In this document: in pieces, positions 23,749 through 27,389 of the stretch
Layout: each line of letters opens with the position of its first letter
Position numbering within the stretch: position 1 is the stretch's first letter
Assembly: GCA_017613135.1 (NCBI GenBank)
Contig: JAGAEN010000019.1
Location: forward strand, 1-46,943
Reading direction: 5' to 3'
Length of the DNA: 46,943 nt
DNA from: Candidatus Saccharimonadota bacterium
GTDB lineage: Bacteria; Patescibacteriota; Saccharimonadia; Saccharimonadales; Saccharimonadaceae
Translations under genes and position numbers: made by a program
The notes under the pieces: generated by a model
Told to the model about the DNA's origin: nothing
Databases searched by the model: none
Seen by the model: the letters and a program-made list of their open reading frames with translations, nothing else

Positions 23749-24732
23749 TTACCCTCTCGGTGGCTCTCCATCCGGCTCGCCGAGCAGTTTTTTAGACTTG
23801 ATTTCGTATCTGCGTCCATTGACCGGCGAAATATAGTAATCCTCGTTTAAGAGATTCACAAACATCGTGAGATCTTTGTCGTCCATAATAATAATCGAAC
23901 CATCGTCATCCGTCATCAGTTCTAGTTGCATTTCATCCGCATAATCCAGTAACTTATCTTGTGGCATCTCTTCCGCAATATCCATTGCTTGCACTTTTTT
24001 AAGTAGAGGCTTCTTATCTGCAAGTAGGGAATCCAGCGTCAAACCTTCCGCAAACGACAATTTATACTTCTCTGTGAGCTCTTTCGCCTTCGCTTCCGCA
24101 ATCACCTGCGATTTAAAATCGTACTGGAACAGATTTTCAAACTTCGCCTGATTAAACACAATAATTGTGCCATCCACAATCGCCACCTGATTATCATCCG
24201 GCATTTTAAGCGCAATCTCTGCCGAAAATGGCTCAAATGATTCGCCATTAATCTCCCACGAAGTAGCGCCTTTGAGCGCCGACGACGCCGGGAGTAACTT
24301 CGCAATATAAAAAGTCTTCATCCCCTCATCGCCAGGGTAGGTAAACTTCGCGATAATCCCTTTCACCTTCTTGAAGTCATACTCGTTTTCCGAAAAATAA
24401 TCGATATCCTTATACTCATTTTCAATTAAATGAATCAAAGTCTCGGCCCGCCCCACTTTCGACAGGGAAGTACGATAAATCACCTTCTCTTCACCATCCG
24501 CCTTTTCGTATTCGCGACACTCTAACCCCTTGTCCGCCTCTTCAATAATAAAATGTGCCGCTTCCATCATAAACATCGATTTCACCGCACCCGTCAGTTT
24601 GTCAGAATACTTAATCTTATACGGCGTGTAATTTTTATTGAACAAAAACAACTCCGCCGAGACATTATTTTTAACTTCATCCACCTCGTTTGCCCAGAGA
24701 AACACATCAAAGGGCTCACTAGAATTTTCCAT
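23749..24732 (-). CDS. DUF4868 (KwaB-like) protein, orphan
   Basis: A 327-residue acidic protein. The central and C-terminal parts fit DUF4868, the family of KwaB from the Kiwa anti-phage system: a strand-rich half leading to 'VDGTIIVFNQAKFENLFQY' (about 186-204), a helical region after it, and a C-terminal NEDYYISPVNGRRYEI..KK that matches the family's usual ending with a Tyr-containing strand and basic residues. In Kiwa, KwaB works with the membrane protein KwaA; no KwaA candidate is adjacent, so a defence role is uncertain. It has a TATAAT box and a GAGGT SD. It is a lone minus-strand gene among plus-strand genes. The family call is from motif memory. Confidence 0.6.
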   Translation of the reverse strand: MENSSEPFDVFLWANEVDEVKNNVSAELFLFNKNYTPYKIKYSDKLTGAVKSMFMMEAAHFIIEEADKGLECREYEKADGEEKVIYRTSLSKVGRAETLIHLIENEYKDIDYFSENEYDFKKVKGIIAKFTYPGDEGMKTFYIAKLLPASSALKGATSWEINGESFEPFSAEIALKMPDDNQVAIVDGTIIVFNQAKFENLFQYDFKSQVIAEAKAKELTEKYKLSFAEGLTLDSLLADKKPLLKKVQAMDIAEEMPQDKLLDYADEMQLELMTDDDGSIIIMDDKDLTMFVNLLNEDYYISPVNGRRYEIKSKKLLGEPDGEPPRG

Positions 24733-25316: not shown

Positions 25317-25591
25317 TGCGACGAAACAGGGAAAATAGCATTATCAGGATATAAATACAATAAAAAGTCAATCCCACCACTCCACCCCCCCGTGTTCGGT
25401 TATTACAACACAATAATCACCAAAAATCAACCCCAACTGTTCGGTAAATTAACAGAGAAGTTTTCCACACCTGCTAAAAACTCACTATAAAAAATCTTCA
25501 AAAAAGCTCTTGCTTTTTTTCAAAAAATATACTAAACTGAAATCAGTGGAAACAATACACAAACACCACAAACAAAATGCACCTTAAAAAC
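25317..25591 (+). other. Gene-free stretch with TGTTCGGT motifs
   Basis: AT-rich non-coding DNA. It has TGTTCGGT at 25393-25400 and 25438-25445, an A/T-rich hairpin AAAAAAGC/GCTTTTTT near 25501-25520, and a TATACT at 25529-25534 that could start the folded RNA that follows. No ORF with coding character is seen. Confidence 0.6.
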
Positions 25592-25851
25592 GTTTAAGAC
25601 CGGCCAACTAGGAGTTTCGGCGCGCATTAAATCTTAAGCGAGATGCGTCAAAAAAATCGTGTGAACCTTCATGAACACACCTCCCAATAAAACTCTATAG
25701 ACCGCAAGGTCAAAACACAATAAGTCTCTCAACGGCTGCGATTATATGATTAGCTTCGCGCTGGTACAATCGTGGTAGATTAATTGTGTTATAAAATAAA
25801 AATCAAAGCAGAAACAAAAACGCTGAAGTTTCTAGTTGATCGGTCTTAAAC
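25592..25851 (+). ncRNA. Folded RNA closed by a 28-bp stem, upstream of rsmH
   Basis: Two segments at the ends pair: GTTTAAGACCG (25592-25602) with CGGTCTTAAAC (25841-25851), and 25606-25622 with 25821-25837, where all 17 pairs form if four G-U wobbles are allowed. Those wobbles would be A-C mismatches on the other strand, so a plus-strand RNA is indicated. Inside are CGCAT/ATGCG, GTGTG/CACAC, GACC-gcaa-GGTC and AACACAAT/ATTGTGTT, which together make a multi-branched fold of about 260 nt. The 3' arm ends 4 nt before the rsmH -10 box. I found no RNase P, tmRNA, SRP or 6S signature. It may be a free ncRNA or an upstream control element of the division cluster. Confidence 0.65.
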
Positions 25852-25867
25852 ATTGTATAATTAGGTC

Positions 25868-26740
25868 ATGAAGAATCAACATGTCCCAGTATTATTATCA
25901 GAAGTTCTAGCGTCTCTAGCGCCACGACCTCACGAATCGTATTTAGATTTGACGGCAGGTTACGGCGGGCACGCTAAAGCAATTTTGGATGTAACACTGA
26001 ATTATAAGGATTCCGTTTTGGTAGATCGTGACGAATTTGCCGTAGATAATTTAAAACGCAAGTTCAAAAACGACATCACCATTATGAATACCGATTTTTA
26101 TAGCGCAGTGTCACAGTTAATTGAGTGTGGAAAAACTTTTGATTTGATACTCGCGGATTTTGGGGTTTCTTCACCGCAACTGGATAATGATGATCGGGGT
26201 TTTTCATACAAAAATGATGGCCCACTAGATATGCGGATGGACCGGCGTCAGCCCCTCACGGCTGAAACTATAGTGAATCATTGGAGCGAACGCGACCTTG
26301 CCGAGCTCTTCGTAAAATACGGAGAAGAAAAACCTGGCCGCGCTAAGATGCTAGCAAGAGAAATCGTCACACATCGCCCGCTCACGACTACTAAAGCACT
26401 CGCCGATTTAATCTTAAGCAAATCTAGATATAGCCACACCCACCCCGCCGCCCCAATTTTCCAGGCCATCAGGATAGCAGTCAACGATGAGTTAAAAGAG
26501 ATTGAAAAAACTCTTCCACTCCTCCCAAGACTCCTTAATCATAATGGTCGTGTTGGCATCATCACTTTCCACAGTCTGGAAGACAGATTGGTCAAAGATT
26601 ATTTCAAAGAAGCCGCAAGCTACGGCGAAGAGTCCGAACTTACCCCAGTCACCAAGAAACCAATCGTTGCAGGACCTAGTGAATTAGTTATCAACCCGCG
26701 CGCCCGGAGTGCGAAACTGCGAGTGGCGATGCGGCATTGA
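25868..26740 (+). CDS. rsmH: 16S rRNA (cytosine-1402-N4) methyltransferase RsmH
   Basis: A 290-residue SAM-dependent enzyme that methylates N4 of C1402 in 16S rRNA. The family start HVPVLLSEVL, SAM-binding DLTAGYGGHAKAIL (about 27-40) and ADFGVSSPQLDNDDRGFSY (about 97-115) with DMRMD (about 121-125) are all clear. It opens the dcw-like cluster; mraZ, which normally precedes it, is missing. TATAAT (25856-25861) ends 6 nt before the ATG, so it is leaderless. The -10 box abuts the folded RNA upstream. Confidence 0.96.
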   Translation: MKNQHVPVLLSEVLASLAPRPHESYLDLTAGYGGHAKAILDVTLNYKDSVLVDRDEFAVDNLKRKFKNDITIMNTDFYSAVSQLIECGKTFDLILADFGVSSPQLDNDDRGFSYKNDGPLDMRMDRRQPLTAETIVNHWSERDLAELFVKYGEEKPGRAKMLAREIVTHRPLTTTKALADLILSKSRYSHTHPAAPIFQAIRIAVNDELKEIEKTLPLLPRLLNHNGRVGIITFHSLEDRLVKDYFKEAASYGEESELTPVTKKPIVAGPSELVINPRARSAKLRVAMRH

Positions 26741-26773
26741 TAAAACAAACAAATAAAACAAAAAGGAGGCAAT

Positions 26774-26839
26774 ATGCCAAAACAAATCGTCGTCGCGAAC
26801 AAATCGCGCAAACAAACCATTAAGGTAAATTTCCGTTAG
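26774..26839 (+). CDS. 21-residue basic micro-ORF between rsmH and ftsL
   Basis: The best Shine-Dalgarno of the cluster (AAAAGGAGG, 26761-26769) precedes an ATG at 26774 that opens a 21-codon frame rich in Lys, Arg and Gln (starts MPKQIVVANK, ends KVNFR). It stops just before a series of four hairpins. It might be a real small protein, for instance an RNA-binding basic peptide, or a leader peptide whose translation affects the downstream folding. I do not recognise it. Confidence 0.5.
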   Translation: MPKQIVVANKSRKQTIKVNFR

Positions 26840-26843
26840 TCAA

Positions 26844-26982
26844 CTTGGCGTCTAATGACGCCAAGATTATGGACCGTTTCGGTCCGCCAAATAGAGTTTC
26901 ACATTGTAGAGTGTGAAGTGTATGACCTTCCCGGGCTAAGTTTCTGTAAGTTACTTATGGCTCTGCTTACAGAAACCCCCGG
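26844..26982 (+). promoter_or_regulatory. Array of four hairpins between rsmH and ftsL
   Basis: Four hairpins in a row: CTTGGCGTC/GACGCCAAG (26844-26852 with 26857-26865), GGACCG/CGGTCC (26871-26876 with 26880-26885), TTCACA/TGTGAA (26898-26903 with 26912-26917), and TTTCTGTAAG/CTTACAGAAA (26941-26950 with 26966-26975) capped by CCGGG/CCCGG (26931-26935 with 26978-26982). No T-run follows, so it is not a plain terminator. It may be an mRNA-stability or control element inside the division operon. Confidence 0.65.
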
Positions 26983-27044
26983 ACTAAGGATGAAAAATAA
27001 ACTGTGATAAAAATAAAAATAAACAAAGCGAGGAAAAATAAAAA

Positions 27045-27389
27045 ATGATTAGTCAAACATACGTGAGCAGAAGGGAAGCCAGCATCGGCTTTGTCCGCAA
27101 TCGCAACATCGTCCGCCACACCAAAAGAAATTTAGGTTCCATCTCCCAAATTGTTATCGTTAGTATGCTCACTTTGGTTTTTGGCTTGATTTATGTTATC
27201 GAAGGCACCAAAGCCACCAGTTTTGACTACAAAATCTCCGAAGTCGAATCCGAAATTACCGAAATGACCGCTCGCCGTGATGATCTCGCCGTCGAAAAAG
27301 CTCGTCTCACCTCCGTCGCCACCGCCAAGAATAGTACCGTCGCTGCCAATATGGAAAATGCTTCGGTCACCGGTTATGCTACTGAATAA
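27045..27389 (+). CDS. ftsL: FtsL-like division protein
   Basis: A 114-residue bitopic protein: a basic cytoplasmic N-terminus, one transmembrane helix (about 37-53) and an extracytoplasmic coiled coil (about 62-100, heptad-like EVESEITEMTARRDDL). This is the architecture of FtsL/DivIC, which form a complex with FtsQ and regulate FtsW-FtsI. The sequence alone is too diverged for a firm name; the place between rsmH and the PBP gene supports ftsL. GCGAGG lies before the ATG. Confidence 0.72.
   Translation: MISQTYVSRREASIGFVRNRNIVRHTKRNLGSISQIVIVSMLTLVFGLIYVIEGTKATSFDYKISEVESEITEMTARRDDLAVEKARLTSVATAKNSTVAANMENASVTGYATE

Follow-up and report, generated by a model that had tools for sequence, protein, structure and literature searches.

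A Predicted Class-Wide Structured RNA in the mraZ-rsmH Gap of Saccharibacteria

Organization of the rsmH Locus

The stretch of DNA analysed here (the window) comprises 46,943 nucleotides of contig JAGAEN010000019.1 of a Candidatus Saccharimonadota bacterium (assembly GCA_017613135.1). Its forward strand carries rsmH (mraW), encoding a 16S rRNA methyltransferase (25868-26740; Pfam Methyltransf_5, E 2.4e-88), with an ftsI-like transpeptidase gene further 3'. The rsmH gene starts with a leaderless ATG located 7 nt after a TATAAT -10 box (25856-25861, +), and a TATAAT-like box precedes the ATG across the genus. Upstream of this box lies an RNA element at 25592-25851 (+), whose sequence and coordinates are those given in an earlier sequence-only reading of this DNA; the gene before the RNA, in the window's genus, is an unrelated ORF without a Pfam match.

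Some other features were recorded in the window. Positions 1-320 hold the 3' end of a 16S rRNA gene followed by a hairpin and a T-run (about 290-315), so that the 16S gene looks unlinked from the 23S gene in the window. A 327-aa ORF on the minus strand (23749-24732) gives a KwaB-like (Kiwa anti-phage defence) Pfam match (E 9.5e-8). Between rsmH and the ORF at the ftsL position, a basic micro-ORF of 21 aa (MPKQIVVANKSRKQTIKVNFR; 26774-26839, +) with a strong AAGGAGG site is predicted to encode an ultrashort conserved protein; a loose pattern finds MPIQVKSSSRAYKVRVRVL-like peptides directly 3' of rsmH in at least 73 of 109 loci of the order. It is followed directly (26840-26995, +) by a second multibranched RNA (CCGUUAGUC...GGACUAAGG), alignable in most genus members; for the stretch 26770-27045 the folding energy is -79 kcal/mol (z = -5.9).

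Structure and Strand of the RNA Element

The region 25592-25851, folded alone with RNAfold, has a minimum free energy (MFE) of -81.2 kcal/mol, versus -50.0 +/- 4.5 in 200 shuffled sequences, none of which was as good (z = -6.98). The sequence-only reading had described a multibranched RNA closed by a 28-bp stem (11 + 17 pairs) and reaching the rsmH -10 box. Both points were borne out, since the MFE structure has a closing stem (P1) of 12 + 18 pairs including G-U, i.e., about 28-30 bp, around a multibranched interior with inner hairpins, and its 3' edge at 25851 lies just before the TATAAT box. The 5' arm of P1 (25592-25622, +) is delimited by RNAfold and by covariation in the genus and order-wide, the 3' arm (25821-25851, +) by order-wide covariation. 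The plus strand had been proposed on account of G-U pairs within the stem, and this assignment stands: two column pairs of the closing stem (22-311 and 24-309) are occupied by G-U throughout the 34 genus sequences, and the score of a covariance model is 271 bits on the plus strand versus 38 on the minus strand, which together indicate an RNA of the plus strand.

Inside P1, all on the plus strand, a first hairpin (P2, CGCAT/ATGCG; 25623-25647) covaries in the genus, and its loop CGA is able to pair with UCG at 25657-25659, forming a possible pseudoknot. The internal element GAACCTT (25663-25669), of the form G-N-A/T-C-N-T-T and nearly invariant order-wide, resembles the first half of boxA, its role being conjectural. 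It is followed by the near-invariant unpaired core ACACCTCCCAAT (25677-25688; order form ACACCTCCCAAAACTCCACCTCACACATAAGTCTCT), which is invariant in alignment A1 and nearly so in A3/A4. P3 (25715-25789), formed in the MFE structure by ACACAAT (25715-25721) and ATTGTGT (25783-25789) around a conserved AAGTCTCTCAACGGC, shows partner changes in relatives as judged by eye (e.g., L021 and L024), while the P4 hairpin (GCTGCGAT/ATCGTGGT; 25735-25776) covaries in the genus and is replaced by other domains in other families. A near-invariant, unpaired A-rich/C tract (25794-25820; order form ACAAAAACAAAAAC...AAAAACAAAAAG) completes the interior; A/C-rich tracts of this kind are found near the 3' arm of P1 order-wide.

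Covariation and the Invariant Strand

The sequence-only reading had proposed to look for conserved pairing in close relatives. In the RNAalifold consensus of the 34 genus sequences, 22 of 41 pairs have both partners changed in one or more sequences; as an example, column pair 10-323 occurs as UA, CG, UG, and AU, and column pair 36-55 of P2 as AU in 18 sequences and GC in 16. Across 32 sequences of the order, belonging to many families, changes on both sides are seen in 17 of the 24 P1 pairs and 97.8% of the cells are paired, and none of 500 shuffles did as well. The pairing thus stood up to the proposed comparison. The pseudoknot is supported as well: the P2 loop can form at least four Watson-Crick pairs with the strand 5' of the GNACNTT element in 64 of 78 loci, versus a mean of 34.6 and a maximum of 46 loci when loops are swapped among sequences, a margin that is indicative, the test being built on related sequences.

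The most striking part of the RNA is a single-stranded run of about 35 letters (ACACCUCCCAAAACUCCACCUCACACAUAAGUCUCU) that stays nearly invariant throughout the order while the amino-acid identity of rsmH drops to about 50%; in the window's genus, this core is shortened. The middle hairpin domain varies between families. In L076, L084, L130, L133, L146, and L171, this domain contains CACCACAACAACUCCAU-like letters that also form the start of the rsmH coding region (..QLH), and the two could compete for one partner.

The invariant strand raises two alternatives. According to the first, the RNA would be a trans-acting antisense RNA, with Shine-Dalgarno regions or another RNA as the pairing partners of its unpaired CACCUCCC/CCACCUCAC strand. 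The strand is C-rich and contains an anti-Shine-Dalgarno-like CACCUCC; however, its complementarity to 16S rRNA, the rRNA operon region, and the RNase P and tmRNA loci is not above that of shuffled sequence, and no partner was found among the rRNA, RNase P, and tmRNA loci, which makes this explanation improbable. According to the second, RsmH would regulate its own synthesis through a mimic of its 16S target around C1402. A resemblance is indeed present in the genus (ACACACCUCCC versus 16S ACACACCGCCC, and UAAGUC versus UUAAGUCGUAAC), but 22.5% of shuffled cores produce a decoding-strand match of equal size, and the core matches 16S best at another place. Mimicry of the decoding site, being no better than in shuffled cores, was rejected, and autoregulation by this route appears very improbable.

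Distribution of the RNA

BLAST retrieved the element in nearly all of the 35 other genomes of the genus. The 34 oriented copies that were aligned match end to end, and all of them lie directly upstream of rsmH. Of 149 genomes of the order, 122 were positive with an order-level covariance model (R1) under strict filters, each with essentially a single copy. Genome quality is uneven and some of the misses correspond to contig ends; most of the missed genomes that could be checked have the RNA, or a contig-truncated part of it, before rsmH. In 79 of 79 order-wide loci, representing about 30 families, rsmH is located directly 3' of the RNA and on the same strand.

A rigid 25-letter pattern of the core matched only six genomes phylum-wide, because the spacer within the core varies in length, and it was replaced by a refined covariance model (R2). 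In a phylum-wide sample, R2 detected the RNA in 32/32 genomes of the order and in 4/5 genomes that belong to the class but to other orders, and the copies whose position was checked lie upstream of rsmH; the one genome without the RNA yielded no rsmH either. Among 343 other Patescibacteria there were eight weak matches, none convincing, all lacking the stem and spanning only the A/C-rich interior, which is roughly the chance expectation. In most of the rsmH loci of other classes that were looked at, mraZ adjoins rsmH without such an RNA. A different long stem (TTTATGTGGCCGATAACTTA / TGAGTTGTCGGCCACATAAA) was observed upstream of rsmH in L186 (G206, another Patescibacteria class; around 1222-1360), where it surrounds CACCTCC and an A-rich tract and where mraZ was not seen; it is a possible analogue that R2 does not recognise.

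The conservation and the covariation described above are the reasons for taking the RNA as real. It can be stated with near certainty, on comparative grounds, that a structured RNA of about 220-300 nt, read from the plus strand, occupies the mraZ-rsmH gap throughout the Saccharibacteria (Saccharimonadia).

The boxA Element and the Upstream Region

The sequence-only reading had remarked that the RNA occupies the position where mraZ would be. This came close: the arrangement in the rest of the class is mraZ-boxA-RNA-rsmH, and 21 of 24 genomes of other families have a MraZ that passes the Pfam cut-off, at coordinates next to the RNA; the RNA lies there between mraZ and rsmH, and it is in the window's genus that mraZ is missing (0/36 genomes over the cut-off).

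Just 5' of P1, at 25579-25589 (+), there is a boxA-like element (GCACCTTAAAA), conserved across the genus and predicted to be a NusB/S10 binding site. The strict motif (G-N-A/T-C-N-TTAA-A/C-A upstream of untranslated RNA), which can be compared with the E. coli consensus GYTCTTTAANA (PMC5725501), was found upstream of the RNA in 55 of 79 order-wide loci, versus 6 of 828 control windows and a shuffle mean of 0.3. The same motif is carried by the 16S rRNA leaders of the order, so that an untranslated RNA and the rRNA leaders have a boxA in common. On the basis of this sequence agreement, it is likely that NusB/S10 load on the RNA polymerase at this site.

Further upstream, the genus alignment suggests a putative promoter of the RNA (25510-25538, +), consisting of a -35 box TTGCTT (25510-25515), a 17-nt spacer, and a -10 box TAAACT (25533-25538); it is kept in most genus members, and some have the end of another gene there. 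A small hairpin (GTGG..CCAC; 25546-25569, +), identified by eye near the presumed 5' end, is present in most of the genus, and relatives have AGCG..CGCT and AGTAGAT..ATCTAC instead, which by eye are compensating changes. Six loci from several families (L072, L077, L074, L156, L160, and L162) contain an extra structured domain (..GGGAAGAGCAG..GAUGAGAAACCCUGAAAGGGUGUCUCAU) between boxA and P1; no Rfam match to it was found in the loci scanned.

A boxA placed 5' of a C-rich, unstructured core might also suggest a Rho-dependent attenuator, in which a C-rich, G-poor rut strand is opposed by boxA antitermination. However, the Rho RNA-binding domain (Rho_RNA_bind) was over the cut-off in none of 60 relatives, with one sub-threshold match, whereas the same search was positive in 9 reference genomes; moreover, a rut site needs no fixed sequence of 35 letters. 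Rho/rut attenuation was rejected on this basis, being largely refuted and left with next to no probability, and for the same reason the boxA found here is not explicable as a protection from Rho.

The RNA-rsmH Junction

In the window's genus, rsmH has a separate promoter behind the RNA, and a similar arrangement is seen in 9 of 14 other members of the family. Most other families have a short A/C-rich spacer between the RNA and rsmH, with no evident promoter and no Shine-Dalgarno sequence, the latter occurring in 1 of 79 spacers. No U-tract of a terminator was found after P1; other expression platforms are possible. Within the genus, the distance from the stem to the -10 box ranges from about 5 to 40 nt, and in some members (L025, L116, and L117) inserts separate the RNA from rsmH.

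These observations bear on the suggestion of the sequence-only reading that the RNA, by direct contact with the promoter, might control cell division genes. That a structured RNA heads the division cluster is strongly supported; control by promoter contact is not, given the variable distance and the lack of an evident promoter at that position in most other families. The same data speak to the idea of a DNA-level element, namely a palindrome or an operator of the rsmH promoter with no RNA involved. The stem does abut the -10 box in this genome; nevertheless, the conserved G-U pairs (two of them invariant), the strand-biased model scores, the pseudoknot, the variable distance to the promoter, and the lack of an evident promoter at this place in most families leave hardly any room for this explanation.

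The main rival is a purely cis-acting leader in an mraZ-rsmH mRNA, controlling rsmH and the downstream division genes through translation of the start without Shine-Dalgarno, mRNA stability, or elongation, with boxA/Nus factors or a ligand as the input, as in E. coli suhB. The invariable location of the RNA directly upstream of rsmH (79/79) and the lack of an evident promoter between the two in most families argue for it, and boxA elements in 5' UTRs can mediate regulation (suhB, PMC5725501). On the other hand, the RNA is fully kept in this genus and in much of the family even though rsmH there is served by a leaderless promoter of its own, a standard expression platform cannot be seen (neither a terminator U-tract nor, with one exception, a Shine-Dalgarno sequence), and the inserts mentioned above part the RNA from rsmH. 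A substantial minority of the probability would still go to this leader.

Comparison with Known RNAs

No family of Rfam 15, the mraW motif included, matched the window, the RNA region, or the order representatives at the gathering score, and permissive thresholds returned chance-level matches only. No description of such an RNA was found in the literature searched (open-access papers only). RNase P RNA and tmRNA were rejected as identities, both being present elsewhere in the genome. For 6S RNA, which shares the housekeeping size and the long closing helix, no RF00013 match was obtained in the genome, which is weak evidence, as the model matches only 6 of 14 control genomes; the RNA differs from 6S also in its large multibranched interior with a conserved single strand.

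The mraW RNA motif of Actinomycetales (Rfam; Weinberg et al. 2010, PMC2864571) is likewise a candidate structured RNA near mraW/rsmH, but it belongs to a different phylum, its model does not match here, and the Saccharibacteria RNA is larger, with a long closing stem, a pseudoknot, and a boxA. The boxA regulating E. coli suhB from its 5' UTR (PMC5725501) also lies outside rRNA and upstream of a gene linked to rRNA biology; however, there is no large structured RNA at suhB, and the suhB mechanism ends in Rho termination, Rho not being found here. The decRNAs of the E. coli mraZ-rsmH-ftsL-ftsI operon (PMC6156199) have been reported as stable structured fragments from the same operon, but they lie within coding regions, whereas the RNA predicted here is intergenic and covarying.

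The closest resemblance is to the bacterial pre-16S rRNA leader, in which a boxA is likewise followed by an RNA closed by a long helix. In E. coli, according to one study (PMC10250234), 30S biogenesis is aided by both boxA and the leader-trailer helix; the helix is essential, and boxA contributes modestly. In Saccharibacteria, the long covarying closing helix is present, but what it encloses is not rRNA: the approximately 200 nt inside are unrelated to rRNA (Rfam), without SSU/LSU model matches and with an alignment to 16S not above shuffles, and they are found in single copy between mraZ and rsmH.

A Proposed Origin and Role of the RNA

The best reading, although we would place it slightly below an even chance, is that an rRNA-like transcript, with boxA and a leader-trailer-type helix, yields a structured RNA, whose function beyond that can be suggested from sequence comparison. 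The transcription would pass boxA and then produce the RNA, whose ends would zip into the long helix; this would present the pseudoknotted hairpin, the nearly invariant C-rich single strand, the variable hairpin domain, and the A-rich tract. The RNA might be folded with the help of Nus factors and be cut from the transcript, probably by RNase III acting on the long helix. In most families, the same transcript probably runs on into rsmH, whereas in the window's family rsmH would have gained its own promoter.

Whether the released RNA acts in its own right is nearly balanced, the probability falling a little on the negative side. The RNA outlived the loss of mraZ and also persisted once rsmH had acquired a separate promoter. 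This suggests that it is more than a trailing part of mraZ or a leader of rsmH, and favours a function of its own; the evidence leans to this extent towards the independent ncRNA considered in the sequence-only reading. The unbroken attachment of the RNA to rsmH favours cis control, since this is what a cis element would do. A role of the RNA, or of an RNP, tied to ribosome assembly would fit the fixed partner rsmH and the rRNA-like build. A bolder proposal, which is tentative and rather unlikely as a whole, is that the class Saccharimonadia as a whole might possess, in this RNA, an unrecognised core ncRNA that matures in the manner of a small rRNA (boxA, leader-trailer helix, excision) and is trans-acting, perhaps with RsmH in ribosome assembly, in bacteria where Rho was not found.

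To our knowledge, few structured RNAs are fixed across an entire bacterial class, and most of these are housekeeping RNAs. Being kept across the whole class and absent from Rfam 15, the RNA described here is a strong candidate for a core RNA of Saccharibacteria that has so far gone unrecognised, for which a covariance model and a predicted transcript are now at hand. These bacteria are ultrasmall parasites, and the RNA heads their division/cell-wall cluster. Its presence suggests that they employ boxA/Nus factors outside rRNA for a reason other than anti-Rho protection, as Rho was not found in this lineage.
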